NCBI GenBank assembly: GCA_026210745.1
Contig: CP110631.1
Location: 5,386,148 to 5,450,147, forward strand
Source of the DNA: Exobasidium rhododendri
Lineage: Eukaryota > Basidiomycota > Exobasidiomycetes > Exobasidiales > Exobasidiaceae
Length of the DNA stretch: 64,000 nucleotides
Reading direction: 5' to 3'
Below, in pieces: positions 1 to 64,000 of this stretch. Under the pieces are notes generated by a model, which did no database searches, was not told the DNA's origin, and was given only the letters and a program-made list of their open reading frames with translations. Numbering within the stretch: position 1 is the first letter of the stretch; every line of letters begins with the position of its first letter. Made by a program: the position numbers and the translations under genes.

Positions 1-2
1 GG

Positions 3-7774: not shown

Positions 7775-7872
7775 GTGGGGGTGTAGCTGTGGTTCTCTTC
7801 CCCCTCTACCCACATCATTTCAAGCAAATCCGCAATACTTCTATTTTGACAGCAACGACACCTTTCTGCATC

Positions 7873-9090: not shown

Positions 9091-9623
9091 GAATCACCAC
9101 TATTCATATGCTGAGGAGTGTATAGTGTGCGTGTAGTGTTTCGTGTGTGTCGTGAATTGCAATGTCAGAATATCTTTCCTCTCTCCACACTTTTTGTCTT
9201 ACCTTCCTTTCTTGCTCGAGTGGGGAAAGTCCGAGCGGCAGCCACAATGCTTTCTGGCTGCGTTACGATCCAACCACATCACACTAATAATACAGACACG
9301 CTACACAGATTTCCCGCCGGCCACAGAGATTGTACCTCTTATCTACGCGTCTTTCCCACACCGCACGTTTCCCCTGAATCCCGATTGTCCCTTCCGTCAG
9401 GGTCTGACGTGAGGCGCCAATCTCTGCACGGCCTACCCAGCTTTTACCGCTGCGTTCCTGACAGAGTCTAGACCCGCGTCCTTTCGTGATGGTCGGTCGC
9501 CCCACTTGCAGGGTCTGCGACGGGAGAGGGTGAAGGTCTTCATGAGAGTGCATGCATGTATAAGAGCACAAAGTCTGCTCTTGACGTTAGCTATATCGTT
9601 CTTCAACAATCGTTCTTTTAAAA
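9091..9623. other. Intergenic region upstream of the first Hsp70-like gene
   Basis: About 530 bases with no convincing gene. A TATAAG element occurs near 9559, about 65 bp before the ATG at 9624, and a short T-rich stretch lies just before the start. Confidence 0.35.
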
Positions 9624-15700: not shown

Positions 15701-15870
15701 CTGAATATAGAGATCTCAAATCCGCCCATCAGCATCGACATCGTGGTCAGTCTGCACTGCAACGACTCGGCTACACAGCAAGCCATGCTTCTTATACAAC
15801 AGAAGAGCATGAGACCGGTCAACACTCTCCGCCTCCATATTTATTCCTTGACGCCGAGCCGGAAAGGTGA
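12728..15870 (+). CDS. HSPA12-type Hsp70-like ATPase (copy B) with long disordered tail
   Basis: Eleven exons: 12728-12816, 12877-13510, 13567-13619, 13691-13806, 13872-14052, 14128-14221, 14294-14602, 14677-14812, 14880-14886, 14949-15119 and 15174-15870. The spliced frame is continuous, about 828 aa. Motifs match copy A: IAIDIGTTFSGASY at the N-terminus, DAGGGTID, VALVGGYSEN, and KAVANGAVAW. The intron at 13807-13871 must use the acceptor TTCGCTAG, because only that restores RLKGTRWDN at the same spacing as copy A. Exon 9 is only 7 bases. The last exon adds a ~230-residue acidic, Ser-rich, probably disordered tail absent from copy A. An acidic insertion (residues ~97-125, with DDSTDDSDGSEDD) lies inside the ATPase domain. 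Confidence 0.85.
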
Positions 15871-16011
15871 TTGTGCGAAGAGAGACGGTTGCTACGACAT
15901 CGACGGTCGAGTGGCCAGTATTCTTACAGCAGGAAAGATAGCTCAAGCTTGATCAACAAGAGTCAATTACACGTTGTGTGTGGTAGATCTGCTTTCGTAT
16001 AATATAGCAGC
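15871..16011. other. Convergent spacer
   Basis: About 140 bases between the stop of Hsp70-like copy B and the 3' end of the minus-strand DUF6604-like gene. It contains no gene. Confidence 0.5.
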
Positions 16012-33997: not shown

Positions 33998-35264
33998 TCA
34001 ATTTGCAATAGACAGTTGTATGTAAAAAGGTTCTCCATCGAAAGTGTGCGCATCGAATAGCTTTGGCTCTATCGACCCTTCGATGTCACTACTGAGAGTA
34101 GGGGAAGAACCAAATTCTCTTTGTATGGCAACCACCGCTACCTGATTGTACGTGTAGACGCTTGCCAAAACAATGAAGGCTCCTAATAGACGTAGAAACA
34201 CGACTTCCTCGTGCAGAAATATGAAAGAGCAAAGGAACGTCAGGACGACCGCAATGCTAGTAGCAAAGCTTTTTGCCAAGCTTGACGAGACCTTCATGGT
34301 AATAGCTACCATAAGACCGCCCCAAACGTTATAGAAAATGGATATCCATGCCCACAGTCCAAATGCTTGTAGCAGATCCGTAGGAGCTTGCTGTGTTCGC
34401 CAGCTTCTTTGTAAAGCATCGCTTAGAAGTGGAGTAGCAGCTGGAATAATGCTACACAAAGACATCTGTAGACAATTTGCAAAGATTGAAGAGGTAGAAC
34501 GTGCTATGACCTTCTCCGTATAAACGCCTGCGAATCCAGATAGAAAACAAGAAGCGAGCAAAGCTAACAGGCCTATATTAGAGCGGCTTGCGAGTCCAGC
34601 TATTCTGTCGAAAGGAGCGGAGTGCTTTGCGGTGGAAGTAGAAGTGGGTGAAATCTTCACAAAAGAAATGCCGCAGAAAACTCCGAAAACACAAAGCCAC
34701 TGGTAACGATTGAGCACTCGTCCCAAGATAGCGACAGTAAATATTGCAGTCGTAATAATTTTCACCTGCGAGAAGATGGCGTAGCTCGTCGCATCTAGTG
34801 AAAGCAACTATATTAGTTCAGCTAAGCTCTAAAATTTACAATCTGTACTGCTCACCAATGTTTGAAGCAGCAAGGAGCTGCAGATGATTCTGTCCGACAT
34901 AGAGTGCAGCTGGAAGCATCATCCTCATCATATCTGCCGTAAATACCTCTGACCTAGCGAAAATGATTGTTCTCTTTATATCACTTGAGAAGTTTTCCGC
35001 TCTGCTATAATAGCTTTGATTTGGAGCGCTGCTTTGTTTTTGGTAGTAGCCAACCTCTTCAGTATGTTTGTAGAAGAAGGAAAAGAGCAATATTATCAAA
35101 GAAATATTCGCCTTTATTATCTCTTGGAGGAGCACTGCCACCGATACATTGTAAGTCAATCCTCGGTCATTAGGTATGCGGCTTTGGGTTATAACGATGT
35201 TTTGACCTGCATTCTGAACGATGAGTGCGAGCAAGACGATAACCTTGATGGCTCTCTCATTCAT
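33998..35264 (-). CDS. Nucleotide-sugar transporter, SLC35A (UDP-galactose/UDP-GlcNAc) type
   Basis: Two exons, 35264-34856 and 34794-33998, with a 61-bp intron, give about 401 aa. The acceptor CACTAG at 34795 is chosen because it restores LLAASNID-ATSYAIFSQ, matching the conserved N(L/I)-ATY-Q-K block of SLC35A transporters; the more obvious TATAG acceptor shifts the frame. About ten hydrophobic helices are visible. The signature QVKIITTAIF and the C-terminal KSFATSIAVVLTFLCSFIFL are typical. These Golgi antiporters exchange UDP-sugars for UMP, and in fission yeast the UDP-galactose member (Gms1) feeds galactomannan synthesis. It starts the glycosyltransferase block, which supports a role in supplying donor sugar. 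Which UDP-sugar is carried cannot be read from the sequence. Confidence 0.88.
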
Positions 35265-36431
35265 ATCATGAGATTTGTGAACGTAGATAAGTTTGATGAC
35301 AGGAATTTGGACTAACAACTTGTAGGAATAGACTTAGTAGAGGGTGTCGGAGAAGGAAGTAAACCCTTCGCCTTCCGGCTCTGTAGTCGATTTTACTGCC
35401 TGAATACGCCCTCTATTCTCGTTGCTTACTACTACACGTCTTACCCAATCAGAAAGGGTGTAGAGAACTCTTGAGGCTTACTACAGTGTTTGAAACCCAT
35501 TATGACTAGGTTTTTTTTCATTGTTTCAGAAGAAAATAGATTCGCTGACCCAGCAAATGATTTATTACTGACCCAGCAGCTAATAGAACAAAATCTAATA
35601 AATACAACATTCTTATTGCATGCGGCACGCGCGTGTGTGACTTTATGAATTTGCAGGAAAGGAAGATATGTACTTTTGTGGAATCAAGTACAAGGGCAAA
35701 ACAATTCTTTTGTCAAATAATGATGACCTCGGCAAAATGCTGCATCATTGTCTATACATCAAATCATGTAACAGATCATACAGCCTGCTGGAAATGGAGA
35801 GGTGAGAAAAAGTTCGTGAACCAGAGATCAGTCTCACTATAGTACGCACTCACAGTGAGTCTTGTTGTGCACACGGAAGTCTTTACTGTTAAGATGGGAA
35901 AGGGAACGGTGACTCGTGTCCCATCAAATTGAGATGATAGAGTGTGTAGTTTCTATACATGTAGGGTGTCAACGCAAAAAAAGAAAAGGTAGAGTGGGAT
36001 GTACCCCTAAGTGGCAACGGAAGCAAGAAAGAGAATGCAGAGGCCCAAGCTTGGCTTCCAGTGAGCAAGGTTTAAAGATGAGGTCCAAGCGTGAGAAACC
36101 GCCTGCAGGGAATCAGACGAGGTCAGAAAACCATTTCTACATTTACAGCTTGCTAATGCATCAATTTTGCAAGATCCGTAGATTGCAGCTCGTTTCAAAG
36201 CTTTATATTAGAAAATGTATTTATAGGAATCTCGTGTAGCAACACTTGCGGCAGTGCACCTCGTTTTTTATTGTGCCAATTCTTGCACCGAGGATGTAAC
36301 GCAACTAGTACTATTCTTGCTCGCTCTTGATACCACTGAAATTTAGAGACGACGGAATTGTACATATCTCACTCCTCCCTAAAAAGATTTTGACGGGATC
36401 AAACAATGAGAAAGAGCAGCAGCGAGATGAC
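35265..36431. other. Gene-free AT-rich region
   Basis: About 1.2 kb separating the transporter from the GT32 gene. No coding signal beyond short chance ORFs is seen. Confidence 0.4.
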
Positions 36432-38610
36432 CTAGCCTATATGACCATCTGATTCTTTTCTCCAGCTACCAGAGAACTACAGAAAGAAATTGAGCCAGAT
36501 CGTGTCATTCGGCTGGTCTTAAGTCTGTCATATGCCCAGCACTCACGAGATGATTTACTAGAGCCTGTGGATGGGTGATATCTCCGACAATAGACATGGG
36601 ACCCTTCGTAACGCCTTTCCACCTGCAAGCGATTAAAATCAATACTTATACTACATTTAGACTGAAGAGAAGCTTGCTCACCTCTGCCAGTCTGGCTTCG
36701 CAAAAGGCGCAAAACCTGTGATCGGAACGATTGCTACATCACCAATCCGAGTTACAGTTTGAATATTGTGTAGTTGAGACCAGTGGATGCTGTACCGAGC
36801 TTGTAAATATGAAAAGACAGCATCTGAGAAGGCTCCAGGTCCAGTTGCCTCAATAAGCGATATCACCCCACCATTTTGAATGTCAAATGGGTCCGTGGTG
36901 AGAATATTCTCAATGTCGTTCCAGAAGTCACCCTTCGCGGACAAGAGCTTTTCCCGATCTTTGAGTGTGTGATTTATACTCAAAATGGTTTCAAACATCT
37001 TGAGGGCGGTCTGGGCATTTTTAGCTTCCCAATTCTTCACCATTTGCATTGATTCCACGACTCGACGAATTGAATCGACATAGATTGGATGTCCAGGCGC
37101 CCCAGCCATCGTCCATTGTACAATTTGAATTGGGCGACTGATATTAGAGCAAAAAGGAATTAAGCAAGGCAGTAATTATGCACCCATCATACTTACGGCC
37201 AAAATGTTTCCCAACCGGTCAAATCCGGTACGTCAACTTCAATACCAACTACGACTTGCGGTGGCCCAGATCTAACGTCATCTGAACTTGTCTCATTCAG
37301 GTCCCAGTGCACAACGTCGATTTCTCCCCAATCCTCGATCGGTTTCAGACAATCAGTATCGGTGTCTGACCAAATGGTGCGTGGCAGACAAAGGTTCAAC
37401 AGGACATATATACTATTCTACTCCCTAACTTACCACTGTAGTATCCTCCCTCTACAAAGAGAATTAGATATCTCCAGAAGTCTGCCTGAAGGACCTTTCT
37501 TTCCATGCCGTCCCAAATTTTCTTTATGACCGTACCGGTAAAGTGTCTTGAAGCCCACTCTTCGAGATCCATATCACTGTAAAAATTATAAGTCGCTCTC
37601 GGGTTAAGCTTTTTAAATCCAGTATCGCGTTCAGGCCTTGATATTCCTGTCTGCCATACAAAGGACGGTATCTTTTTGGGCTTGAACGAATCTGCGCCAG
37701 CTCCCTTGATGATTGCGCGACTCCACTTGGCCAGTCTCGGCTGGAAAGCATCGGTAGCAAATTCAGAAAGTATCTTTTCATACGTTCTCCAGTCATTGCC
37801 TGTTAACTTATACATCTCCTCTTGAAAGTTTGGTACTTGTAAAGCTGTATGCGGCGCGGTACCAAACTTGCTTTTCTCCATCCCAAGAAGAGGAACCTTT
37901 TTAGAGATTACTCGCATGTTCCCAAGCATCCAATCGGCGCCATTCCTGTAAAAGGTCTTCTGTGTCTGATAAGGGGTATGATGTATTTCTTCTTTCGAGT
38001 ATGTGTCTGATTTTTTTTTAATGTAGATGAGGGTACTGAGAAAAAGAAGCATGGCAACCAAGAGAAGAAATCTAGCACTCAATCTAATGTGTTTTCTTCT
38101 GTATTTTCCAGACTCAATAGTTTCCTTTTCGCTGATCGTAGGAAGAATAACGGACTGCAAGACTCTCAATGTAAGCAAAGCACCAACTGTGATTAACCGT
38201 CTTGAACTACGCACATTTCGTTCTGGTCCGATCCTCTTTTGCATCATACTGAAATATGAATTGTGAACCAGTGATGGTGTTGGCTTACGAAGAACGAGAA
38301 TTTTGAGGCCGTCTAGCACACTCGACTTCGTCGCGAATTTAAGACCTTTCACGTGCTTTAATGTGGCTTCCTTTTCTTCTTGGACGGCAGTTGTCCTGAA
38401 AAGTAAGCAAATATGGGTCATGACCGAGGGAAATCTTGCATCCAAAAAAACCTTTTGGACGACAGCAAAAAATTTAGGATATTTTTCGTCTACAATAAAA
38501 TGTTTTGATAATAAATTTGAAGCTTGTGTCATTACTCGAACGCGATTATTTATTGGACTGATACCCAGATATCGAATAAGACAAACCTTTCTATCTACGT
38601 CCGTGCGCAT
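36432..38610 (-). CDS. GT32 (Och1-like) alpha-mannosyltransferase
   Basis: Five exons (38610-37434, 37365-37197, 37137-36682, 36622-36547, 36476-36432) give about 640 aa if the first ATG is used. A basic N-terminus and one anchor (LSARFLLLVAMLLFLSTLIYI) make it a Golgi-type type II protein. The catalytic region has IPSFVWQTG, QADFWRYLILF and, across the first splice, SDTDTDCLKP, the DXD metal and nucleotide-sugar motif. The end has GPGAFSDAVFSYL, VAIVPITGFAP and the terminal FSGSWRKE, as in Och1-family enzymes that start or extend alpha-1,6-mannose on N-glycans. The N-terminal ~120 residues before an ATG at 38247 look unconstrained, so the true start may be there. Its 5' end faces a secreted-protein gene 275 bp away. 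Confidence 0.85.
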
Positions 38611-38820
38611 CGAGGAACTCCATAGTCCGAATATTGGAGTCTGTCTGCGATTCAAAAAATTGTTCGAAGAATTTTACGAGCGAATCAGCTTACATTCAAT
38701 GTCGCCACTCGGCTATGATGCTGAGGACGGTTGATGAGAAATTTTCTGAATTCTTGACATATTTAATGTAAAGATACTGTCCATCTTTCTGGGAATCGAA
38801 TTTAAGTCGGCGGATGTACA

Positions 38821-38826
38821 TATAAA
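38821..38826 (+). promoter_or_regulatory. TATA box of the small secreted protein gene
   Basis: TATAAA, 60 bp before the ATG at 38886, followed by a CT-rich leader (CCTCTCTACTTCCC), the strongest core promoter seen in the window. Confidence 0.6.
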
Positions 38827-38885
38827 CACCTTCTCCCCATTTCTCATTTACCTCTCTACTTCCCTATCACAGAAAAGAAAACACC

Positions 38886-39663
38886 ATGATGAAGCTCTTA
38901 TACGCTCAGCTTCTGATCCTCTTGGTAGGGTACGTTTTCGCTTCGTCTGAGAAGCCATTTGCTCCCGAGCTTTTCGATCGCATCACACTCGACTCACAAA
39001 GCGAATATTCCTCCGAAATTGAAGTATTCGCTCCTAATCGACTTGGCAAGCGTAGCTCTATTGACCTCAACTTACATGAAAGGAATCTGACAGAAAAGGA
39101 ATTCACACCCTTTGTAAAAGGAGATATTACCGCGACTACCATCCCAATATTAAAGAATCGATGGTATCGACAAAAGCATCATGTCTGCGAAGAAGATGTG
39201 AGTCCATGTGTTGGAAATGACAAATGCGACTGTTCTGCATGATTTTAACTGAACTCGGCGGTAGTCTCAATGCGAAAGTGATCAGTACTGTAGTCAGAAA
39301 ACCGGATCAAAAGGTCATCAGTGTTATAAGAAGCTACTAAATTACAAACACTGTAGGAGAGATGTGAGTCTTCTAATGCTTAATACCTTTCTTTATTGCG
39401 ATCTTTACTGAACACGACACGAAACAATTTAGTATGCCTGCGAATCTGGTTACTGCTCTCCCAAGGAAAACGTTTGTAAGGCAAAAGCTCATCATCATGG
39501 CAGATGTATATGCGATAGTGGCTGTCGTGGTGGTTTGGAATGTATCAACGGCCTTTGCGAAGAGTATCACCCCCAGCATCATCACCATCGGCCATCGCCA
39601 CAACCTCCAAAGTCAGAACCAAGTGGATCTCATTGGAGGCCTCGCCAATTAGAAGAGATATGA
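38886..39663 (+). CDS. Small secreted cysteine-rich protein, effector-like
   Basis: Three exons (38886-39197, 39265-39363, 39433-39663) give 213 aa. A signal peptide is clear (MMKLLYAQLLILLVGYVFAS). The next ~80 residues have no Cys and include an R-x-x-x-KR-like site (NRLGKRSS), a possible Kex2 cleavage point. The mature C-terminal part holds about twelve Cys in about 75 residues spread over the three exons, in spaced pairs (CESDQYC, ACESGYC, CICDSGC, CINGLC), followed by a His/Pro-rich tail (HPQHHHHRPSPQPP). Exon ends coincide with Cys-module ends, suggesting exon-wise repeat growth. The pattern resembles secreted cysteine-knot or colipase/dickkopf-like folds. No target is known; apoplastic effector or wall protein are both possible. 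Confidence 0.75.
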
Positions 39664-40431
39664 GCTATATCACTCGATCGATGCACTGCTGTGTACTGAA
39701 AAGTGGCGGTTGTATAGTGTATTGGTATCTCTCGCGGATAACTCCTGAGATCTTTTTTCGTAATTGGAAATCAATCTTTTCTTCACCTTCCAGCCTCTTT
39801 CTATCCTTCGCTTTCAACAAACAAATGTCCAGTGAGATACGACCACGCCGTCTACCAAGATACTTGTATAGACTACGTCTCCGCACAGCTTTCATATTGG
39901 GAATCTTCTGCAATAAAATTTTCTTCAGGCCTCAATAGTCGTTATCACCCGATCGAAGACTGCTCTTCTTTGAAATTATTGAGGAGCAATGTGTTCATGA
40001 GAAGGGGAGGGTACTGTGACGGCATATAGAAAGGCAATTTTTTGGATCTTCTTAGCAAAGCTTCGCTTGATCTCGTAGCAAAATCAGCACTCTAAAAAAT
40101 ATCTGTTGCATTTGAGTCGTCTTCCTGCTTGGGTGATTTGCGTGCGCGTAAGGTACCCGTTTTTCCCCTTTGGCTCTTGAATCAAAGGATATTAGAAGGA
40201 CATTAGAAATGAATAACCAGACCGATCGGAACACGACGCAGCTGGGTAGCCGACAGATCCTGCAAGAAAATGGGTATTGAGACTTTCGATCTTGATACCT
40301 TTATCTTATTACAACTATTCAAAGACTAGATTAAACAAAACCTTGCTGATTCAGTATTCCTATCTGACGACGTATCAGACTGGAGAGGATTCTCGATCTT
40401 CGACCTACTTCCTTGCCGCATCATAATTTTA
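39664..40431. other. Intergenic region between secreted protein and GT34 genes
   Basis: About 770 bases, AT-rich, with no supported gene. Confidence 0.4.
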
Positions 40432-41661
40432 ATGGTTCCAACGATTCTTAGCACCACACCAACCCTACTTACGAGATCAAACTTACTCCAGTACATAGTA
40501 CTTGTCCCAAAGAATCCGTCTCCTACAATGCTCAGCAGTAGTAAAAAGGTTGAAGCAGCAGACAACGAAGATTTCTTTCTTCACCAGAGCAGGTCGTTTT
40601 GGAACACTTTTCGGACGAGAATGTCTGGAATTCTGTTATCTACTCTTATTCTTATGCTGCTTTCGGTGTCAACATACACGATGCTGATAAAGCCCCCCAT
40701 GGCTTCATACAGAGCGAGCAGGATATCTCAACGTACAAAGAGCTCGGTCATGAAAGTGACTGGTCTATATGGCTCAGGATCATGGCTGAAGTCGTCCAAG
40801 ATGCAGCGTCAAATGCAAAGACAATATTCGAGGTCGATATCTCTTCACAAGGAACACGCCGACAAGTTTGGACACCAGCAAATTATCTCCACCCAACAAC
40901 TCTTCGGCAAGCATGTCAACAATGCTTATACCAAAATTGGTACTCTGCTGGAGCAGAATTTCAAACAATTGTCGAAACCTTCAGGTGAAAGAATCCAGTG
41001 GCTCTTGTGAGTGGCTAGCATACTTTCCTCTACAAGAGACTTCGATGATTGCAGGCCATTAACATCTTATTCCTTCGTTGCAACTGCTTGAAGTTGGCAC
41101 GATGTAGATACAGTTATAACAAACAACAGGATATCTCTTGACTCTTTCATTCAAGATATAAATGACGATGAGGACGTGCAATTCGTTTACACAAAGGATC
41201 AGAACGGGCTCAATGCAGGGGTGTTCTTTCTACGGATCGGCGAATGGGCATCCATATTCCTTGCCTCGGTACTCGCAATGAGCAAAATCAATCCACCTAT
41301 AGAATTGGGTTTCTGGGAGCAGACTGCGATAGCCACAATAATTCAAAACAATGCTTTCTTTAGCGGTGCAAGCGTGGAAGTGCCAAGGGACTGGTTCAAC
41401 GTATATGCTTATCTGACAATAAATGAGACCTCTGGCGAGCTACATAGTCCATTTCCACCAGGCAACTTTCTGACTCACCTGGTAGGACCTGACAAGTATA
41501 AGTCAGGTTGGTACGAATTCTACTTGACTGCTGGTGAGGGGTCGGATCGTGCTTATCATAGCGACACAGTCGCAAAATTGCTTCAAGAGGAAGTCAGTGA
41601 CTTTTGGACTGATAGATCGTTTCGTTCATCACTACGGAATGCTGCCATTCGAACTGATTAG
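40432..41661 (+). CDS. GT34 family glycosyltransferase (galactosyl/mannosyl), copy 1
   Basis: Two exons, 40432-41006 and 41094-41661, with an 87-bp GTGAGT...GAAG intron, give about 380 aa. The join creates IQWLFWHDVDTVI, with the DXD motif DVD, and the end has GLNAGVFFLRIGEW, FWEQTA and LTHLVGPDKYKSGW. These are hallmarks of GT34, which includes the fission-yeast alpha-1,2-galactosyltransferase Gma12 and Mnn10/Mnn11 mannosyltransferases. One membrane anchor (about residues 70-87, ILLSTLILMLLSVSTYTMLI) makes it a Golgi-type type II protein. A second, diverged GT34 lies at 45571-46899 on the other strand with equivalent exon content, so the two probably arose by duplication. Donor sugar is not determinable. 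Confidence 0.85.
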
Positions 41662-43014
41662 GCACAAGTGACCTATATGCGTCTTTGTCTTTCATATATT
41701 AAATCTCGACTTGCAATAATCTCATACCTACCCTTCTCTACCTACAAGTACTTGATTACAGCTTTAGTGCTTCTCATCATGAAATATGATAATGTCTTGT
41801 TATTTTCAATTGAATTTGTGAGCTCAGATGAAGAGGAGCATTTCTTTGAGTGTGGAAATGAATTCTGGCAATTATGAACAGCGGTAAACTGAATCGGCGA
41901 AATGAGACAGAGGTGTGAGCTTCTGTGCTTAGTAATTAAAACGCTGACGTGAAACATGGGCCTCTATAATCACTTTTGGTATGACACATAGAAATAATTC
42001 TCTAATAGTCTATACGCTAAAGTAAGGCCAAGGAAAAATTCCGATTCGCATACGTAAATTCATTCAAGTACATCTTACTTAGTATTCGTGTTACGAATGG
42101 CGGCATTTCAAGAATTTGTAGGTAAATTCCCTCAAGCAAAAATTCAAGCAAAAACAAGTGATCACCGACCGGACCTAGGTGACTTTCTACATATATTCAC
42201 GTATGCAACGAAGTTATTGCGATTACTGTGTACGTGCAAACATTATTATTTTCAATAATTCACGTATTTGGATAGAAATTTGTATCGGCTTTCATAGTTT
42301 GACCTTCAGCTCGAGCGCGCAACCAGGTAGCTACAGACCGGGTGTTACACGCAAGAGAATGCTCACATTAACAAGAATCTGAACTATTACATTGATGATA
42401 CAATTCGCATTGATGCCTTCCAACTTTAAGGATTAGTGCCACTCATTACCTGACACCAGCTTTCAGCTAAATCTTGATGAAAGGGGGTCAACTTTGTATA
42501 TGACTATGTCCCTTTAAACACTCCAGAATGCTGGACAGAATAGATTCATCACAAAAACCACGAAACAGACCGACACTACGAGCAAGATGTACAATATTGG
42601 TCTAGCAGTACAAGAAACGACGAAGACATTCTTATCTATGAGCAATGACATTGGACCTAGCGACTTGTGAGCTATAGATGGCCATCAAATCACTTTACTA
42701 TCTCATGGGCTCTACTGTAAATTCAATGCGTTTTAGTATATACCATCCAAATAATGCTACGAAGCAGTTCGGTCCGCTAATATTGCCATCACATCGTAAG
42801 GGAAAATCCCAGTGATCCACCAAGCGTGAAGTTAGCACGAGACGATGACTTGTCATTAGCCGATACCGATCTGATATAGGTGAAATTTATATTTCCAGCG
42901 TAAAGTTCGATATGGAGTCAGTTCAATACTAATGGTACTATTGTCCGAGTATATCAGCGCATAAAAGCGACGTACTGTCATTACACAAATTGCTTATAGT
43001 ATGTCAGATACGAC
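41662..43014. other. Gene-free AT-rich region
   Basis: About 1.35 kb between convergent GT34 and GT71 genes. It is AT-rich with scattered short ORFs and no domain. It may hold the remains of deleted genes, but I see no clear homology. Confidence 0.4.
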
Positions 43015-44625
43015 CTACAATGTAGGCCACATATCATCATAATGAAGCTGAGATTTTCGGCAAATTTCGTCTTGAGCTGCAGTCACAGCTGCATTGAATA
43101 AATATGATTGCTGGCAGGCAATGGAGGTCACCTCTTGCCACAATGCTTGCTCAGGATCCTTGACATTCCAAGCAGTTGGTAAATTGCGGGCTGAAAACCA
43201 CTCCCAGATCCGATGACTACGCTGAACAGTTTTTGTAAACCACATCTTCCCGCTTTCTTGAAGATCACTTGCATCATTTCTATGGCTAATAGACGTGACA
43301 AAGTACGGTAAATGCCAGTCAGGACGTCGCTTGTGAAAATCATCACTGGGAGAGTAAAAGACCATACCTGTTGTGACAAAAGGACTTCCAGGTCGATCGA
43401 TGTCCGGGTAACCGGTAGCCTCTGCAGAGCGTTTGACCGTGTAAGCCTTGATTCCGAAGTATTCTGCTGCAGCAAGTAGACTCAAGTCTCCGCCCACCAC
43501 TCCGGAGCCTTGTTGTATCAAAGCATTGTACATGTGCGGCCCGTAGAAGCTGTAATAGATAGCCAATAGAAGGGAACGCGCATGTTTCCGCTTTGAAATG
43601 ACCAATTGAGACAGCTTGATGTTGCGACCACGATGTGGAGGGTCTGCGATCGTATTGACTTTCTCTGTCTTGGCTGATGTATTCGTTTTTTTCTGCACTA
43701 GTGAAAGTGTCCTAGATGGCGACGCCGCCATGAAATCTGGCCACATTACCAAGCCATTTGTAAGAAAAGGTTCCTCCTTAAAGAGATTTATCGGATTGTT
43801 CAAGACTAAATTCGAGGCTTCCAGAAAGAGAATTTCCTCAAATGAAGAGAAGAACATGGTGAAGAGCTTGTAGAGAGTCTCGTCCACTTGCAGTCCTCTA
43901 CTTCGCTGCATTTGGGGACGCCTTGGCAAGGGGTGGTCTTTGAAGGCGTTTTCGAGCGTCTCGCAGCGTGCATGCAGCTTGCGCAGAGTAAAGGCACAGA
44001 ATTTGTGATCGACCTCATTATTAGTCGGCAACATCACCACTATTTGAAGCTTACAACCTGTACGACGCAGAAGTCTGATAGACGCTAGCACCTCGAAAAG
44101 CTGTCCACCAGAGGCACTGATCACGATGCCACGCGATTTATCTTCGTACGGCACGACGATAATGTCTTCCTTGATCAGAAGCACAAACAGTTCGTGAGAG
44201 TCTTGAGCAAGCTTAATGTCGACATCCGAAAATTTAAGTACGTCTTTTGCAGAGTTCTCGCGACCCGATCTAGTGGGATAATCAACTGCGTCAGAATCCT
44301 TCCAAATCAGTGATACACCTCTCGGTCTTGCTTTTTGTAGCCCTTTCGCCAAGGTCGACCAGGCCAAATTTGGTTGGCTGTGATCTGAGACATGTTTGAC
44401 TTGATAGCGTCTACTGGAAGATCTGATCTTATTGGACCGAAACGACAAGATGTTATCTCCATATCTGAAGAATGCATAGATAGAGACGATGATGATACTA
44501 AGAAAGATGATTCGTTTCAAATAAAGACGTCTTTGTAGCATGTGCTGAAGACAAGTCTTGCTGTATAAGAGGGATCCGTCACTCCACGACAGCGTGAAAG
44601 AAGAATGGATAGGGCGTTTCGTCAT
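43015..44625 (-). CDS. GT71 (Mnn1/Mnn2-like) glycosyltransferase lacking the usual DXD
   Basis: A single exon of 536 aa from the first ATG (44625); the open frame begins upstream at a GTG. A short cytoplasmic part precedes a membrane anchor (about 40-57, IIFLSIIIVSIYAFF). The catalytic region has RGIVISASGGQLFEVLASIRLLR and CKLQIVVMLP, typical of GT71 alpha-mannosyltransferases that cap or branch outer-chain mannan. Where the family has LDADN (metal and donor binding) this protein reads LFLEASNLVLNNP, so both Asp are replaced. The rest of the fold (KEEPFLTNGLVMWPDF, QGSGVVGGDLSLL, GIKAYTVKRS) is retained. It may use a different metal mode or be inactive. It sits convergent with GT34 copy 1. 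Confidence 0.8.
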   Translation of the reverse strand: MTKRPIHSSFTLSWSDGSLLYSKTCLQHMLQRRLYLKRIIFLSIIIVSIYAFFRYGDNILSFRSNKIRSSSRRYQVKHVSDHSQPNLAWSTLAKGLQKARPRGVSLIWKDSDAVDYPTRSGRENSAKDVLKFSDVDIKLAQDSHELFVLLIKEDIIVVPYEDKSRGIVISASGGQLFEVLASIRLLRRTGCKLQIVVMLPTNNEVDHKFCAFTLRKLHARCETLENAFKDHPLPRRPQMQRSRGLQVDETLYKLFTMFFSSFEEILFLEASNLVLNNPINLFKEEPFLTNGLVMWPDFMAASPSRTLSLVQKKTNTSAKTEKVNTIADPPHRGRNIKLSQLVISKRKHARSLLLAIYYSFYGPHMYNALIQQGSGVVGGDLSLLAAAEYFGIKAYTVKRSAEATGYPDIDRPGSPFVTTGMVFYSPSDDFHKRRPDWHLPYFVTSISHRNDASDLQESGKMWFTKTVQRSHRIWEWFSARNLPTAWNVKDPEQALWQEVTSIACQQSYLFNAAVTAAQDEICRKSQLHYDDMWPTL

Positions 44626-45570
44626 GTCATGAAACGGATAATTTAGAGAAACAAAAGGGTCTGCTTGAGACACTTTATAGCGTTCTCGTTATTTTTGACT
44701 GTCTCCTTCGAAATTCTGCAATCATTGCGCGAACATTAGCGTAAAGCAAAGAAATGGCACCTCATATTTCGCTCGAATTCTAGCTTAAAGCAAAGTAAAG
44801 GTACCTCATATTTCGCGTTCGGGTAAGGGTGTCTTGATAAACGAGCGTGTTCAAACTTGTACTAATATTGATTTCTAGGTATTTCCCAAAAGTAACGAAG
44901 CACTCCCCTTTGACCTGTTAACTACCAATCTAAAGTCGCGTGCACATGTGTCCTCTCCTATATAGAGAAACTGGGTGATTGCTTTACCTGAAGCGGTGAG
45001 CTCGACGATGACAAATATGATCTGAAGTAATTCATCTTTATTACGCGAAATTTATTGTTAATTGTGATTGACCCCAGATTTGCAAGGGTCAAATATTCGT
45101 CAGTTAGTTGTCGGCTTTAAGCCAATTTATTTCACTCTAGTACGCCAAAATGGTGGTAATGATTTCTCTGCCTTCTGAACACATATATGGCTGCCCACTT
45201 CACGCTTCATATACAGTGCACGTTTAAGTGACATAGTCCATCATCTTAAAGATGCTGGATCCGCTGTATGGGCTAGAGTCTATGATACTACTATGCTATA
45301 TTTTCCCTTCTTGGTTTTTAGATCGGAAGGTCAACGAACGACTCGGAAGATTTCAAAATCGATAGAGAGTCGAATTAAGAATAGACTTTATTCGTACAGG
45401 ATGGCATTAGGCCGAAATATAGAAGAGCTCAATGCGACGTTTCCAGCCTTGAGCTCGAAACGAGATTTCGAGTGTTCTACTTTAATATATGAAATGTGCG
45501 AAAAATTTGAGCTCTCTCCGTGTCTGTTAATTAGTCGGTTGCAGTGTACGACAGTAGCAAAATCCTTGTC
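44626..45570. other. Intergenic region with short tandem repeat
   Basis: About 940 bases. It contains two tandem copies (about 44 bp apart) at 44738-44774 and 44782-44818 sharing AAAGCAAAG and ACCTCATATTTCGC. These lie upstream of the minus-strand GT71 start (44625), so they may be promoter elements. A 93-codon open frame at 45293-45574 has no domain and is left out. Confidence 0.45.
44738..44818. repeat. Two tandem 44-bp repeats upstream of the GT71 gene
   Basis: The shared words AAAGCAAAG and ACCTCATATTTCGC recur 44 bp apart, about 110-195 bp from the GT71 start codon at 44625, a position where duplicated binding sites are common. Confidence 0.6.
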
Positions 45571-46899
45571 TTAGCTTATTATTTTCGATGGAATCTCTTC
45601 CCAAAATTGTTGGACGTCTATTTCCAAATTAAGACTTTGCAAAGGAATCTCAAACTCTGAAGTATGCTTTTCTGCGATCGTCAGGTACTCTTCGAACCAA
45701 TTTCTCCACTTTTTCGCTGGCCCAACGAGATGTAGGAGAAGGTGTCCAGGCTGTATGACCGTTTCAGGGGCTCCTAAATGCATATTATCAAACCATTCGC
45801 TTCCATACGAATTTAAACCCCAGCTTCTGGGAATCTGCTGATATGCTTGTGAGAATAATTCACTTTGATTCAGGATTTCGATGAGAGCGGCTTGATCTTC
45901 CGTCTTTTTTTTAGTCTCTTCCGGCTTTTTAAGTTGAAGAGCTAATATTGATGCGTAGAGAAGATTACTGAGTGGGCTTACTCTTGCAAAGAAAATTCCG
46001 TTGTTCAGGCTCAGCATGTCATGGGTGGCAAGAAGATGAAGGTCAGTCCTGTTGCTGGGCGGTAAGTAGACTTGAAGTGGAATTTCGGGATTCAAAACGA
46101 CAGTGTCGAGATCGTGCCAACTATAAACAAATTGAAGGATTGATCATTAGAATTCAAAGTCAATTTATTGACGTTCGGTACTCACAAAAGCCATTCTGCT
46201 CGCTGTTCTACCGGCTTTCGTAGCTCGCGCATGGTGAGCTGTTGGAGAAGCGCAATCTTATTGAAACTTGGCGGAAGGAGATCGCCTATCAAGGAGTCTC
46301 TCAAAATTACTTGCCCATGACCTTGATAGTTCGCATGAGCTTTGTGTAACTCGATGGCCCTTTTGAATTTTGTATCTTCATCGTCGGTTCCAACGGTAAA
46401 GATCCTTCCTGTGCCTATGTATGCGGTTACCTTGATTATCCTTGTCTGCCCAGCCTGAATGCGAAGGCAAACATCGTCTAAGCAGCCTGTTTCGGAACGG
46501 AGACAGTGTCAGAAAGTCTTTCACAATTGAATTATACGATCCTAGAGTATGGAGACAAAGCGGAAGGCAGATATATCGTCCACATCTCTGCTAGCTGCGC
46601 GGCGTACTACTTACTGTGACTTGCTGCAACATCTTGAGTGTTTCTTTCTGTCGTTCTAGTGCCTTGTGCTTCATAGAATAGCAGTACAATGACTATCGCA
46701 GCTAGAAGAGTGAAGTAAGCTCTCTTAGACTGCTAAGATATAGAATTCATTTTGAGCTTTGTCAAACTTAAGTCTGCGTTCTGTAATCCTGGCATTGACG
46801 TACCAACTTCGATAAGATTGATCGCGCGGTCCGCTTCCTATCCAAAGCAAGTGTCCCCTCCTCTTCATCAAGATAGGTCTTTCTGATATGACCAAGCAT
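45571..46899 (-). CDS. GT34 family glycosyltransferase, copy 2
   Basis: Four exons, 46899-46804, 46732-46615, 46486-46186 and 46120-45571, give about 354 aa. Exon 2 carries the membrane anchor (FTLLAAIVIVLLFYE). The last join yields EWLFWHDLDTVVLNP with the DXD motif DLD, followed by IPLQVYLPP, LLATHDMLSLNNGIFFARV and LLHLVGPAKKWRNW. The same blocks occur in copy 1, and in both the final intron falls inside the WLF codon block. In copy 2 the start ATG (46899) is the first in frame; the open frame upstream begins at TTG. It has the profile of Gma12/Mnn10-type Golgi enzymes. It is the telomere-proximal end of the glycosylation block. Confidence 0.83.
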
Positions 46900-50826: not shown

Positions 50827-51497
50827 ATGTACAAGGTGATCTGATCATACCTAGGGGGGTCCCCATTTTTTTTTGCAAGGGATGGGCCCGGGGCAGGTTC
50901 CAGTGTCTTGATAGGACCCTATTGAAGCTATACACAAGGTTCAAGGAAAATCCTTAGACAACTTTTTGCGCGACGGCCACTTTTGTGCCGTGGAGCGCAC
51001 ATGCGTCTGATGGCGCTCCACACCCAACCAAGAAACCATCTAGGGTCAATTATACACTATTATAGAGCCTACCTGTCTGTATCTATGTGCAAAGTTTGGA
51101 GGAAATCGTTAGACAGGTTTCCGAGCAAAGGGGACACGCACATGGTTTTTTGACACGATGCGTCTGCCGTTTTTTCATGATTTTTTCTAAGTATCCCAAT
51201 GCTCTCAAGGTATTACTAAGAGATGTTCAGGGTGTCTTAGAGAGTATGCAGGGCAAGTCTTGAGGCATCTCATGCTAGCCTTTTTGGAGCACATCACACA
51301 CTATAATGGGGAACATGTCATATCATTCTTGTATCTATCTATCTACCTAGGGGTTACACATGGTTCTGCGTAAAGGTTGATGTTTTATATGGTATAGTTG
51401 GATAGAATAGATGCCAATGAGTCCCCTGTTACCCCAACCTTACACACAATTGTCAATATTGACGGCGCTAGCCCAATAAACGTCTTTTTGTACACTT
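50827..51497. other. Subtelomeric non-coding block
   Basis: About 670 bases to the right of the inner TTAGGG tract, with G-runs and no gene. It contains the first copy of the palindromic GTCAATATTGAC motif (51452-51463). The words TACACATGGTT near 51356 recur at the start of the X2 block at 61886, suggesting the shared block may once have started earlier. Confidence 0.45.
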
Positions 51498-51792
51498 GGT
51501 TTCCCTCTCAGCGCCATTAGGGTGGGTCCCTTTTATGTTCTAATCAGGTAGAATATATGTTACTCTATCATCTGAATGAGCCACCCTACCCACAATTGTC
51601 AAAATTGATGGCGCTAGCCCGTCAAATGTCTTTTTTGCGTGTCGAGACCATGGTTCGGGTGAATTTCCCAAAGGCACCAGGGTTCCTCTTTTTTTTGATG
51701 CAGACAGGTAGAACATAGACTATTCTCTTGTTCCCATTAATGACCCTACCCCCAATTGTCAATATTGACGGACTTTACTCAGTCAGACGTCT
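51498..51792. repeat. Subtelomeric X block, copy X1
   Basis: About 295 bases duplicated at 61892-62188 with only a few differences by eye. It includes GGTTTCCCTCTCAGCGCC, GGTAGAATATATGTTACTCT and the palindrome at 51758-51769. Two internal sub-repeats share AATTGTCAA(T/A)ATTGA; with the flanking copy at 51452 this makes three, spaced about 146 and 160 bp. Confidence 0.85.
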
Positions 51793-52166
51793 GATTTTCA
51801 TGCCAGAACATACTATCTTTCAAACTATCACAATCTTTCTGTAACTTCACACAGACGTTTAGAGAGACTAAAAAGGGGAGTATGCAAAGAATGGAGAGTC
51901 CTTTAACAGAACTGACAGAGTCCACTCAGTAGCCCGTCCTTCCAAAAACGGGTACATGAGCGCAAAGCGTATTTATTCCAGTCTTCCCAGACCACTCTTA
52001 GCATCATATATGGGCTTAGGGCAGCATTATGAACACATGTATGTCTCATCATACTTAGTGATATTTCTCACTTCACCTGTCTCTTCAAGCCGTCTCACAC
52101 ACAGCACGTATAGGAGACACAATTCATTTCTGGAACACAGGAACTATTTACAGGATACATACAGGA

Positions 52167-55100
52167 CTATGAGGATACAAAGAGGAGCTCATAGTGGTTG
52201 TTGGCGTGGTACAGGCCGTGATAAGAGACCTGCTCACTGTCAGGATAGTATGACCAGGCCAGGGTGCCGTCTTCCTGCAGACTGGCCACTGCCAGAGGCA
52301 GGTTGTATGCAGAGGCAGCCGCAAAGAGACTGAGCTGGTCTCCCCACACTCCTGGCTTGGCCATTGTCTTGAGCCACTGGGCGGTGCCTAGGTGTCCTTC
52401 ATCTTCTGTGGCAAAGTTGGTGATGTAGTGCCGGTTGTCTGGCTGTCCCATCCATCCCACCACGCGTCTCCGGACCGGGTACGCAGAGCGCAGGTTGCCA
52501 AACTGGTGCCAGCTGATGGCAGCAAACTGGCAGTTGCCCTGGGCCGGCACAAAGTCCACCGTCACAGTCAGATTACCTTGCAGCTGCCGCATCTTGGGGA
52601 GCTTGCGTGTGTCTCCAAAGACATCTGTCTTGTTCTTGAGCGGGAGATGGGTATGGGGCTGGTCCATCTCTATGTCACTGTTGATGCTGGCGGGAGAGGA
52701 TGCTTGAGTACTGTGTTGGCTTGGCTCATACTCGTCCTCTGTGTTGTCTGCTTGGTAGACTTCTTCTTCTTCTTCCTCCTCCTCTTCCTCCTCTTCCTCA
52801 CTTGCGTCTACATTCTGTCCTCTCTTGGAGCGTCTTGAAGCTTTCTTGCATGTGGGATTGGGGACTTGCGGCTGGAGTTGGCGGGTCACACGCGTCCTGA
52901 CTGTCAGTGGGGGTGGAAGGCTGTCATCAGAGTCTTCTACATCTTCAACAGTAGCTTGCTCCGCTTGCTTGAGCTGCGCAGGCCAGTCATCTTCTGCCAC
53001 TTCTATATTTCCCAGTCTATATTCCTTTGCCCAGAACACAAGACAGGTCTCCTTGCCAGAGCGCTTGCCACAGTCCTTTGCTTTACATCTGATGCGGAAC
53101 TGACGCTGGAAGCCGTCATAGATAGTGACATCTGACAAGTTGCAAGAAGGACACGGAAGGATCTTCCTGTTGGCCATATAGAACTCTTTGGCTTCCTCTA
53201 CTGTCCAATCTGTCTCTCGTCTGCCTGTCTTGTCCTTTTCTGGGAGTGGGGCGGCATCTTCAGGCAGATCCTCCTTCCACCAGGCATTGTCATTCTTCCA
53301 TGCGGTTGGCTTGAAGAAGCGTGGTGCCCATCCAATGCTGTTCAGGCAGTCTACCAGCACCTCCTTTAAACGTTCACTTGGCTGTCTGTGATCATCTCTT
53401 CTCAGCAATCCCGTCTGCTGGGCCTTGGTGATGGTGTCTTCTGCATGCTCCAAGATCTCTGCCGGGTCCAGCTCCAGGACGTCCACCTTCAAGTTGGCAT
53501 ACTCCTCTGTGAGTGGGTCAGTGTATGCGTCCAGATTGAGCAGGGCAGACTTTCTGACATAATCACAAGCAGCTTGAAGGGTGGGCGCTTGTATGCTGAC
53601 TTCCATGCGGTAGCCGCCTGTGATCTTGATCTTCTTCATCCTGGCTAGCATGGCACAGATGGACTTGTATCTCTTGCGGGCTGCTACATGAGTGAGTGGC
53701 TGGGTGGCCACATGCTTTGCCTTGATGGCCTTGAGGTTGTGGACATAGCGTGGATAGATCTTCATGCCCAGGTTCCTGCCGTCTCTCTTCATCTTGAAGC
53801 TGACTGAGCCACAGCCTTGGCCAGCCTCCAAGAACATAGGCACCGTCTTGACTGGTGTCTTGGTCAAGTAGGCTGCACGGAAGACAGGTACGCTGTCAGA
53901 TGATACCATCCTGCCAATCTCAAAGGTGTTGTATCTAGCCAACGGGTGTTGCTGTGTGCCAGGGTCATAGCGGTAGTGCTTGATGGGGTTCTTGATGCCA
54001 TACACCATCACCCGGACTGCATCACACTCTACTGCTACCAGTGCTTCAATAAGGAGGGGAAAGGAGATGGGATGGCCGCCAGAGGAGAAGGCGGTGGCGT
54101 AGGTGGCTCCTTCAATGGTGATCTTGGTCTTGAGGTACTCCAGTAGTGGCTTCTTGAAGGCTGGCGGGATCTTGAAGTAGCTGATACCCTTGGCTAGCCA
54201 GACCCAGTCGTGGAAGTTGGGCAGGTCCCTGATCAGTGGCTGTGGTGCCTGAGGACAGAGTGCTACAATGGTGTTCTGCGTGCCATGCTCCCACAAGTTC
54301 TTGGGGAAGATGGTGATGTTGTATGAGTCAACGTCTGTTGGCAGTCTCCAGAGGTGGCGGTCTTTGGGCTCTTCAGGCTCTTCAGGCTCTTCAGGCTCTT
54401 CAGGCTCTTCTGTTGGACGGTCAGGGCTGTCTTTGTTGCTGGCGTTGGAGCTGCTGCTGCTGTCACTGGGGTCTGGGTCATCATTGTTGTCAATTCCATT
54501 GTCAGCGTCCATGTTGTAGTCCATGTTGTAGTCCATATTGTTGTCCTGGCTGTTGTTAGTGGGGCTGTCCTGGATGGGTGCTATACTAGGCAGCGGTGAC
54601 CCCACAAGAGTCATTGGTGAGGCTGTCATGTTGTCATTGTCATTGTTGGACCTGTCACTGCTGGCGTAGTCAAGGAAGGATGGTGGTGGGTCTGTGGCAG
54701 AGGTTGGCGGTGTGTCCATGACACTTGACTGGATGCTTGGAGGTGGTGCAGGCTGTACTCCAATAGTGTGATCCTGCAGAGAAGAGGCAAGCGTGTCAGT
54801 ACTGTGTGACGGTACCATAGTATCAATTCTTCACTCACCATGCGCTGCCATTCAGCCAAGAACCGTGCTTCACGCTCTGCTACAGTCCTTCTTGATACCC
54901 TTTCCAGCGTGAACCACACTACACGTCTTGCTGGGCTGGCCCCGTCCCTGACATCCACTGTTGCTTGTGCCGGCTGTATAGTCAGGAGTCAGTATGTGTT
55001 CCTGCTGTATATGTGTCATGTCTGTCACTTACCGTCTCTGTCTCTGTCTCATTATTTACAATCATATCTTCTTCTGGCCCTGGAACGTCCACGTCTGCTA

Positions 55101-56270: not shown

Positions 56271-56596
56271 AACAAATGATCCCCCATGAGCCAAAGACAT
56301 CCCGAGTGCATTCGGATGTGTAGTAGCCAACAGCGCTGTCCCCTCTTTTTGACTACTAATACTAACGCGGCACCTCCAGGACAGCCAGGCTGAGCAAGGG
56401 CTCTGTGTTCTCACATGCCAGCCACTGTACTACTCTTTTCCGTCAAAAAGGGCAGCCCGGTGGCGGCAAACGCAGTCAAGTGGATCAGGGGAAACTATCC
56501 CCCCCTTCACCACAGGGTACAACATAGGCTGTTATAGGCCTCCCCAGAGCCAATAAGCATCCCCACACCTCAGCAGGACTGCTGAGAGATTCACAG

Positions 56597-57205
56597 CAGC
56601 CTCCCGACGAGCAGAGAGCTCTATTCCCCAAGCCAATAGTCTCTAAGTCACTGGACAGCTGAAGAAAATCAGATCTAGGCAGTAGACGTTGAGAAATCGC
56701 CCCCAGAACCCACTATGAGAACTTTATGACTAGCAGAGCTCCAAATGATTGGAAACTATACAGTAGGCCATAGAAGCCTCCCCCCGACGAGCTGCTCCAT
56801 TCAGAATGAAGACTTTTCAGACTCTAAGATAGTCCTCCTAAGGGTCGTCGCATTAAAAATGAGGATCCTATAAGAAGAAAATCTTTTTGTCCTAGAAGAA
56901 TCTTCTTTCTGACTATTGCAGCAGTCTCCCGACGAGCACAAAGCTCTATCCCCCAAGCCAGAAGTCCCTAAGTCACTGGAAAGCTGAAAAAATCAGAACT
57001 AAGCAGTAAACGTTGAGAAATCGCCCCCAGAACCCACTATGAGAACTTTATGACTAGCAGAGCTCCAAATGATTGGAAACTATACAGTAGGCCATAGAAG
57101 CCTCCCCTCGACGAGTTGCTCCATTCAGAATGAAGACTTTTCAGAGTTTAAGTTAGTGTTCCTAAGTATCGCTGCACTAAAAGTGAGGATCCAATGAGAA
57201 AAAAA
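56597..57205. repeat. Two tandem copies of a ~285-bp unit, offset 324 bp
   Basis: Segments 56597-56880 and 56921-57205 match over most of their length, for example CCCCCAGAACCCACTATGAG at 56700 and 57024, and TGATTGGAAACTATACAGTA in both. Differences are mostly single bases. Neither copy has a long open frame. The first copy starts with CTCCCGACGAGCAGAGAGCT. Confidence 0.88.
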
Positions 57206-57989
57206 ACTTTAACTCCTAGAAGAATCTTTTTTTTGACTCTTCTTACATATGCGCTAGGGGGGGGCGATTTTTGTTCCTGCTTTTCAAAACCCTCGGTCAA
57301 CTTTTTAATTGTTTTTTCTCATTTTTTTGACACATAGTTTTCATAGCGATCTGCGGCAGGATAAGGGGCCCTTTTCTGGTCCAAATCTTGGCACTAACCC
57401 CAAACATTTTGCATGTAGGCTACTCCAGGCTACTCTAGGCTTATCACGAGGTGGGTGGGTGTCCAGAAAGGGTTGGTAGGAGTGTGTGGTGGAGGCGTAT
57501 GGGTGCCGTAAAGCCGTAAAGGGGGCGTATGCTCTATGTAGGGGCTCCTTCACATGTCAAAGCTGTTTCTAGGCGTCTGTAGAGGCAATAGGAGGATGTT
57601 TCATCAGTGTTGAGCAGCACCGTTAGTAGTCATCTGGCTGACGTTACCCAGTCCAGACGCTTTTTTTTTCTGACCCCAAGAGAATGAAAAAAAATAAAGA
57701 CAGCTATTATTGTTTCTATAGGTCCGTATGGACTATATGAGCATATTTGACTGCCATGAGACATCGTCTCTAGTGGCCATTTGAGAGACTTTTCCTAGTA
57801 GAGACTTTCTTTTTTTCCCTCCCCGAGAGAATCAGAAAAAATAGAAAACAGCTGACTATGCTTGTGTTCATCGGTATTGGATCATAGGACATGCATCTTC
57901 CACAGATACACTGTTAAAGTGCCTAAATTGTGGTTTTTTCTAGTCACCCGAGACAAGAAGTTTGACCAGCACTCGAGACCAAATACAGA
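57206..57989. other. Subtelomeric spacer between tandem unit and satellite
   Basis: About 780 bases. Two similar segments about 146 bp apart (from 57661 and from 57807) share a T-run, CCC(A/G)AGAGAAT and AACAGCT-like words. No gene is seen; a 70-codon open frame at 57341-57553 has no domain. Confidence 0.4.
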
Positions 57990-60010
57990 GCGCGCACCCT
58001 AACCTCAGCCTGATATCATCGATCGCAAATTACTTCTTCATTGAGATAGGTATGAGTGACCTGCATAGGCCCCGATTACACTGCTAAAGTGCCTCTCAGG
58101 CGGGTAATTCTGGTCATGCGAGCCTAAAGTTGGGAACACGATTCTTGCGAGGGCCAAACAGATGCGCGCACCCTAACCTCGGATTGATAACCTCGACGCG
58201 TAAGATTTATCGTCACTAATCTTCGATACAGATATACAGATACGCGCACCCTAACCTCAGCCTGATATCATCGATTGCAAATTACTTCTTCATTGAGATA
58301 GGTACGAGTGACCTGCATAGGCCCCGATTACACTGCTAAAGTGCCTCTTTGGCGGGTAATTCTGGTCTTGCAAGCCTAATGATAGAAAAGAGATTCTTGC
58401 GAGGGCCGAACGCAGGTACGCGCACCCTAACCTCGGATCGATAACTTTGACGCGTAAGATCTATCTTAGCAATACCCTTAATAGAGAAATATAGATACGC
58501 GCACCCTAACCTCAGCTTAGTACCATCGATCGCAATTGATCTTTTGTTCAAGATAGGAACGAGTGACTTGCATAGGCCCCGATTACACTGCCAAAGTGCC
58601 TCTGTGGCGGGTAATTCTGGTCATGCAAGCCTAAAGTTTGAAACACGACTCTTGCAAGAGCCAAACAGATGCGCGCACCCTAACCTCGGATCAATAACTT
58701 CGACGCGTAAGACTTATCGTCAATGCAGTAATACACGTGCGCGCACCCTAACTCCAGCTGTATTTGTCGATTGCAACTCACTTATTGGCCATATGAGGTA
58801 CAGATGACCTGAATCTTCCTCAATTACACTGCTAAAGTGCCTCTGTGGCGGGTAATTCTGGTCATGCGAGCCTATTGATAGAAATAGGATTCTTGCGATG
58901 GCCAAACACAGATATGCGCACCCTAACCTCGGATCGATAACTTCGACGCGTAAGACTTATCGTCCATGCAGAAATACACGTGCGCGCACCCTAACCTCAG
59001 TCTGAGTTGTCGATCGCAAATTACTTCTTGATCAAGATAGGTACGAGTGACCTGCATAGGCCCCAAACACACTGCCAAAGTGCCTCTCAGGCGGGTAATT
59101 CTGGTCATGCGAGCCTAATGATAGAAAAGCGTTTCTTGCGAGGGCCAAACACAGATACGCGCACCCTAACCTCGGATCAATAACTTTGACGCGTAAGATT
59201 TATCGTCACTAATCTTCGATACAGATATACAGATGCGCGCACCCTAACCTCAGCCTGATATCATCGATCGCAAGTTACTTCTTCATTGAGATAGGTACGA
59301 GTGACCTGCATAGGCCCCAAACACACTGCCGAAGTGCCTCTGTGGCGGGTAATTCTGGTCATGCGAGCCTAATGATAGAAAAGCGATTCTTGCGAGAGCC
59401 GAACACAGATGCGCGCACCCTAACCTCAGTCTAAGTTGTCGATCGCAAATTATTTCTTGATCGAGATAGGAACGAGTGACCTGCTTAGGCCCCAAACACA
59501 CTGCCGAAGTGCCTCTGTGGCGGGTAATTCTAGTCATGCGAGCCTAATGATAGAAAAGCGATTCTTGCGAGAGCCGAACACAGATACGCGCACCCTAACC
59601 TCAGATCAATAACTTCGACGCGTAAGATCTATCTTAGCAATACCCTTAATGGAGAAATACACGTGCGCGCACCCTAACCCCAGCTGTATTTGTCGATCGC
59701 AAGTCTTTTTTTGATAAAGATGGATACAGATGACCTGAATCTTCCCCAAATACACTGCTAAAGTGCCTCTCTGGCGGTTTATTCAGGTCATGCGAGCCCA
59801 AAGTTTGAAACACGACTTTTGCAAGAGCAAAAGCGTAATAAATGCGCGCACCCTAACCTCAACTCAAACTCTTCGATACGCCGGCTCTTTCTTGGCAATA
59901 CCCTTAATAGAGAAATACAGATGCGCGCACCCTAACCTCAGCTCAAACTCTTCGATGCGCCGGCTCTATCTTGGCTGTATTGAGGCGATACAAGGGCGCG
60001 CACCCTAACT
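57990..60010. repeat. Subtelomeric satellite with ACCCTAAC core, alternating 175/75-bp spacing
   Basis: Seventeen copies of (G/A)CGCACCCTAAC (one reads ATGCGCACCCTAAC) start at about 57990, 58164, 58242, 58419, 58497, 58671, 58738, 58914, 58982, 59157, 59235, 59411, 59586, 59665, 59843, 59923 and 59995. Spacing alternates between ~174-178 and ~67-80 bases, giving a higher-order period of ~243-255. The short gap is skipped once (59411-59586). Recurrent words are GATCGATAACTT-like tracts, CACTGC(C/T)AAAGTGCCTCT, GGCGGGTAATTCTGGTCATG and GACGCGTAAG. The core contains CCCTAA, the reverse of the telomeric strand at the right end. No gene lies here. Confidence 0.92.
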
Positions 60011-63609: not shown

Positions 63610-64000
63610 TCCCGATAGCTAGGGTTAGGGTTAGGGTTAGGGTTAGGGTTAGGGTTAGGGTTAGGGTTAGGGTTAGGGTTAGGGTTAGGGTTAGGGTTAG
63701 GGTTAGGGTTAGGGTTAGGGTTAGGGTTAGGGTTAGGGTTAGGGTTAGGGTTAGGGTTAGGGTTAGGGTTAGGGTTAGGGTTAGGGTTAGGGTTAGGGTT
63801 AGGGTTAGGGTTAGGGTTAGGGTTAGGGTTAGGGTTAGGGTTAGGGTTAGGGTTAGGGTTAGGGTTAGGGTTAGGGTTAGGGTTAGGGTTAGGGTTAGGG
63901 TTAGGGTTAGGGTTAGGGTTAGGGTTAGGGTTAGGGTTAGGGTTAGGGTTAGGGTTAGGGTTAGGGTTAGGGTTAGGGTTAGGGTTAGGGTTAGGTTAGG
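63592..64000 (+). repeat. Chromosome-end telomere, (TTAGGG)n
   Basis: A three-unit stub (63592-63609), a 10-base spacer TCCCGATAGC, then an almost uninterrupted TTAGGG array from 63620 to the window end, about 63 units. The final bases carry a one-base-short unit (TTAGG). The G-rich strand runs to the right end, as expected for a right chromosome arm. Confidence 0.98.

Follow-up and report, generated by a model that had tools for sequence, protein, structure and literature searches.

A putative Golgi glycan module with a divergent GT71 protein near a telomere of Exobasidium rhododendri, and a related gene set on chromosome 3

Introduction

In fission yeast, galactomannan is assembled with a UDP-galactose transporter and GT34 galactosyltransferases, and the galactose on the glycans is pyranose. 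We analyzed the 64,000-nucleotide right end of contig C2 (the window) in the four-contig, 17.65-Mb genome of Exobasidium rhododendri, a leaf-gall basidiomycete, where a cluster of six genes (33,998-46,899) likewise combines a transporter with GT34 proteins. Unlike the genes of the fission yeast system, those of the window are physically clustered, and they are accompanied by genes for a GT32 protein, a GT71-fold protein with broken motifs (pseudo-GT71) and a cysteine-rich secreted protein.

To our knowledge, the galactosaminogalactan cluster of Aspergillus includes neither a pseudo-transferase nor an embedded cysteine-rich secreted protein. It is likewise a co-located gene set for one surface polysaccharide (PMC4817252), with enzymes that differ from those of the window. 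Among single enzymes, the initiation-specific alpha-1,6-mannosyltransferase Och1 (PDB 9n3s) shares with the window protein the GT32 family and a DxD motif, and the yeast GT71 alpha-1,3-mannosyltransferase MNT2 (PDB 7xjv, Mn/GDP-mannose form) carries DSD (DxD) at a place occupied by EAS in the window GT71.

With a probability of about 0.5, we consider that the window cluster belongs to a pair of related Golgi glycan modules in E. rhododendri, with a pseudo-GT71 partner and a secreted client; the second would be a gene set on chromosome 3 (C3).

Gene content of the cluster

All six spliced gene models are free of internal stops, and their introns are of the GT-AG type. The gene of the SLC35A-type nucleotide-sugar transporter (33,998-35,264, minus strand, two exons, 401 aa) matches PF04142 over residues 3-353 (3.9e-58). 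Its three PDB matches are all CMP-sialic acid transporters (6oh4 at 5.5e-27), and sequence matches of this kind are uninformative as to the donor.

The GT32 gene (CBS101457_005031, protein P0001; 36,432-38,610, minus strand, five exons) matches PF04488 (2.8e-10) and Och1 (9n3s, 1.6e-25), with the DxD in GGYYSDTDTD. The N-terminal start of the model is uncertain, and its hydropathy peaks lie at residues 139 and 179. The deposited model begins past a hydrophobic segment, and the secreted-protein gene (38,886-39,663, plus strand, three exons, 213 aa) has no protein-search match; for these reasons both genes (window 36,432-39,663) look under-annotated.

Two GT34 genes, (a) at 40,432-41,661 (plus strand, two exons, DxD in WHDVD) and (b) at 45,571-46,899 (minus strand, four exons, DxD in WHDLD), match PF05637 at 3.3e-11 and 3.0e-7 (43.8 and 30.9 bits, cut-off 23); GT34 (a) has no PDB sequence match at E 1. 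Between them lies the GT71 gene (43,015-44,625, minus strand, one exon, 536 aa; PF11051 at 1.6e-34).

An earlier note, made from the sequence of the window, had placed six genes here. The intact spliced models bear out the positions, and Pfam agrees with the family calls of SLC35A, GT32, GT34 (twice) and GT71. The note had also claimed that no unrelated intact gene lies between them. Of the 41 ATG-started open reading frames (ORFs) of 120 aa or more on the list for the window, the sole one in this interval outside the six genes (39,540-39,938) overlaps the last exon of the secreted-protein gene in another frame, in keeping with that claim.

A related gene set on chromosome 3

A second set at C3:960-972 kb contains four of the window's families: the secreted protein, GT32, GT71 and SLC35A. 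The presence of all four, the secreted protein included, supports the idea of a dedicated module put forward in the earlier note. Compared with the window, the GT32 stretches are 59-76% identical, GT71 32% and SLC35A approximately 32%, and at both loci the secreted-protein and GT32 genes are adjacent and divergently transcribed. The chromosome-3 set is almost 1 Mb away from the end of its chromosome, which indicates that the module also occurs outside subtelomeres. Neither tblastn nor a genome search matched a GT34 gene in it. A short ORF with a membrane segment is present inside the set, at C3:969 kb (locus L039, approximately 4.3-4.9 kb).

Together with five relatives, which are 54-57% identical to the window copy, the window and chromosome-3 GT32 proteins make up a separate clade; the next matches are from Tremellomycetes (30-35%). 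P0006 may be an orthologue of the window GT32 (33/41 in the GT32 tree).

A GT71 protein with broken motifs

The window GT71 fits both the family profile and the GT-A fold. It has EAS in place of DSD/DxD, and the conserved Glu, DKET and His of its motif-bearing relatives, which together with the DxD would be required of an active mannosyltransferase, were not found in it. In a comparison with 18 reference GT71 rows, which the test defined as motif-bearing, all five members of a divergent clade (the window protein and four relatives) lacked the second Asp of DxD, the Glu of ExG, DKET and the terminal His. The window protein has lost residues thought to be catalytic, with the reading frame intact; despite the broken motifs, fold and full-length frame are retained across lineages. 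The earlier note had taken this protein for a partner enzyme; the family was called correctly, but an active enzyme is contradicted at the level of sequence.

A second pair of pseudo-GT71 genes was found at C2:5323 and C3:4898 kb, each within a locus of approximately 20 kb that also holds an intact-motif GT71 and a secreted protein. At E 0.01, the window GT71 had no NCBIfam match. A limited open-library search found no literature on catalytically inactive mannosyltransferases of the Mnn1 family, and for pseudo-glycosyltransferases together with GT71 it found only VldE of Streptomyces; neither outcome of so limited a search is proof of absence.

Cysteine-rich secreted proteins beside GT71 genes

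The secreted protein of the window has an N-terminal hydrophobic stretch, a KR site, C-x5-C repeats and a His/Pro tail. The earlier note had described it as cysteine-rich and secreted; the gene is intact, and the Dickkopf_N-like match (PF04706, 2.1e-4) stays below the Pfam cut-off (22 bits versus 25). The top genomic relative, at C3:960 kb, gave 24.5 bits with the same model, and 25.6 in the genome scan.

Five cysteine-rich proteins, all with a hydrophobic signal-like start and tandem modules of the C-x5-C type, are encoded close to a GT71 gene, at distances of up to approximately 6 kb (window, C3:960, C2:5295, C2:5332 and C3:4890 kb). Besides the query pair, two genome searches gave six relatives, three of which lie beside GT71 genes and had already been noticed in ORF lists before these searches.

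No homologue of the window protein was found at E 0.01 among 27 candidates, in a search that also missed the chromosome-3 relative. The latter has no PDB sequence match at E 0.1, and its predicted structure (pLDDT 58.5) gave no PDB fold match at E 0.001, the N-terminal region of Dkk4 appearing at E 0.62 with this low-pLDDT model. Three pithovirus transmembrane proteins matched it at E <= 0.001, with TM-scores of 0.10-0.19.

Possible product and other glycan loci

The congener E. gracile is reported to secrete polysaccharides that contain galactofuranose (Galf) with alpha-1,2- and alpha-1,6-mannose; one of two exopolysaccharides is 2,6-branched and galactose is furanose in both (PMC6600561). 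The UDP-Galf pathway is described as consistent in Ustilaginomycotina (PMC8092308). On these grounds a Galf-bearing mannan would be a reasonable and plausible product of the cluster, and its galactose may have the furanose form instead of the pyranose form present in fission yeast.

A gene for UDP-galactopyranose mutase (UGM; C2:5186-5188 kb, PDB 4u8j at 1.9e-71) adjoins the other two GT34 genes of the genome, with an acyltransferase, two GT25, an SLC35A and a PIG-L gene nearby; this region (C2:5180-5206 kb) is likely a Galf locus. The NCBIfam UDP-GALP_mutase model did not confirm the UGM (14.9 bits, cut-off 303.75), and the call therefore rests on the PDB matches. The galactomannan proposed in the earlier note is made plausible by the chemistry of the congener and by the UGM beside the other two GT34 genes.

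A second type of module is duplicated at C2:5319-5342 and C3:4884-4904 kb. It comprises an intact-motif GT71, a degenerate GT71, a GT90, an acyltransferase, a cysteine-rich secreted protein and a protein with weak, below cut-off Stealth matches.

Interpretation of the cluster

In the proposed module, the SLC35A protein would bring a UDP-sugar into the Golgi, where the GT32 and the GT34 pair would extend an alpha-mannose-based outer chain, possibly decorated with Galf. The pseudo-GT71 may be a subunit that has no catalytic role and instead holds the active transferases in place or steers them, and the cysteine-rich protein may serve as a dedicated client or as the carrier to which the glycan is attached. 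A smaller version, with no GT34 detected, would be the set on chromosome 3.

Several observations weigh against this reading. The gap between the secreted-protein and GT32 genes is approximately 4 kb on chromosome 3, with short ORFs between them, versus approximately 0.3 kb in the window. The window SLC35A scores 186 bits against locus L037 and 167 bits against the chromosome-3 set; because of this better match elsewhere and the low identity of the pair, not every gene need stem from one block duplication. The branch of the window GT32 is long (1.24 versus 0.02-0.39 for the other six clade members) and the cluster is GC-poor (0.427 versus 0.48-0.50 at C3:955-975 kb), so that constraint on the window copy may be relaxed. 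The motif loss of the divergent GT71 clade is partial, the first Asp of DxD being kept in 4/5 members (the window protein has Glu there) and the Gly of ExG in 3/5. Search support is weak for two of the three additional secreted relatives (E 0.0046 and 0.19), and no cysteine-rich secreted protein was found in the 10 kb read at C3:2688 kb, the locus of a motif-bearing GT71. A second UGM-like gene is present at C1:5393 kb.

The long GT32 branch and the low GC content would also fit a mere neighbourhood, in which genes for glycosyltransferases and for secreted proteins accumulate where the genome evolves fast, the secreted proteins being effector-like and functionally unconnected with the enzymes. 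The failure to find an E 0.01 homologue of the secreted protein points the same way, with the reservation noted above for that search. The genome-wide distribution bears on both sides of this question. We placed 38 genes of the GT71, GT34, GT32, SLC35A, GT90 and GT25 families by joining exon matches from Pfam scans into genes by hand. Three genes missed by these scans (the window GT32, its chromosome-3 relative and the second window GT34) were added, one SLC35A below the Pfam cut-off (C2:3593 kb) was retained and one GT90 below it (C1:100 kb) was excluded. Six of the 38 genes are inside the window, and 22 fall within the final 270 kb of its chromosome (1.5% of the genome), as expected of a neighbourhood. 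A partner of another family was present within 15 kb for 30/38 genes, versus 2.0 genes on average and never more than 12 when placement was randomized 5,000 times, and co-location of the glycan genes is not due to chance. Outside the arm, 9 of the 16 genes still had such a partner (random mean 0.3, maximum 5), and on chromosome 3 the secreted-protein and GT32 genes are neighbouring and divergent far from any chromosome end. We regard an explanation by neighbourhood as possible but rather unlikely.

It is unlikely that the divergent GT71 clade is catalytic by other chemistry (e.g. metal-independent transfer or a different donor), which would make it a new kind of active transferase and not a scaffold. 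Full-length frames, structural columns conserved across lineages and the clade-wide pattern point to a retained function, and some altered places agree between members (Gly at D342 in 5/5, Asp at E300 in 3/5). However, no member keeps the second Asp, Glu, DKET or His, and most of the lost places differ between the five proteins.

A set like that of fission yeast, with an active GT71 and with galactopyranose placed on N-glycan outer chains by means of a UDP-galactose transporter and GT34 proteins, would account for an SLC35A gene and two DxD-bearing GT34 genes within 13 kb and for the location of all four GT34 genes found genome-wide on the window's arm, but is very improbable given the broken GT71 motifs and the furanose reported for the two E. 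gracile exopolysaccharides, and it presumes a UDP-galactose specificity of the SLC35A protein.

The module reading can be extended, tentatively and with considerable doubt, to a self-contained glycoprotein factory. Each module would encode a secreted client, its transferases, their donor transporter and a conserved dead GT71 that recognizes the client and steers the enzymes, the pseudo-GT71 having arisen at least twice. If the module reading is true, fungi retain proteins of a mannosyltransferase family in working roles although these are inactive as enzymes, and surface-glycan diversity can be carried by compact modules in which the decorated protein is encoded too. The genes would then be candidates for the synthesis of the Galf-containing exopolysaccharides of Exobasidium, and would offer a direct route to testing the role of a pseudo-glycosyltransferase.

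Subtelomeric setting and neighbouring features

A TTAGGG-type telomere repeat occupies positions 63,620-64,000, approximately 17 kb from the cluster, which confirms the position near a telomere given in the earlier note. The repeated subtelomere has its proximal edge at an OTU-domain gene block (51,351-55,000). The part of this block from 51,488 to 55,000 also occurs at both ends of chromosome 3 (51.49-55.0 kb in the DNA search, copies 91-93% identical), and the same search found no other genomic copy of window 47.0-51.35 kb. DNA shared between ends thus begins at approximately 51.4 kb, some 4.5 kb distal of the cluster.

The DNA search of the flank and a protein-level comparison of the cluster gave no support for a recent cassette exchange between chromosome ends. 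The exchangeable subtelomeric cassette of the earlier note gains no support from this boundary and the internal position of the chromosome-3 set. A limited open-library search found no literature on subtelomeric glycosyltransferase gene clusters in fungi, which is not proof of absence.

Tandem repeats of 324 bp and approximately 175-430 bp lie between the OTU block and the telomere (56,594-59,943), and repeats of approximately 380 bp were observed close to the left end of each of C1, C2 and C3 and also towards the right end of C2.

In the proximal part of the window, neighbouring reading frames at 9,591-11,183 and 12,839-14,743 are presumably Hsp70-like, judged from a motif; the former has no Pfam match at E 0.01. 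The GC content is 0.51 at positions 1-18,000 versus 0.43 at 33,998-46,899. A GT90 gene (1,638-3,533, plus strand), beside an Acyl_transf_3 reading frame (141-815), is part of the same arm-wide concentration of glycan genes and lies outside the 13-kb module.
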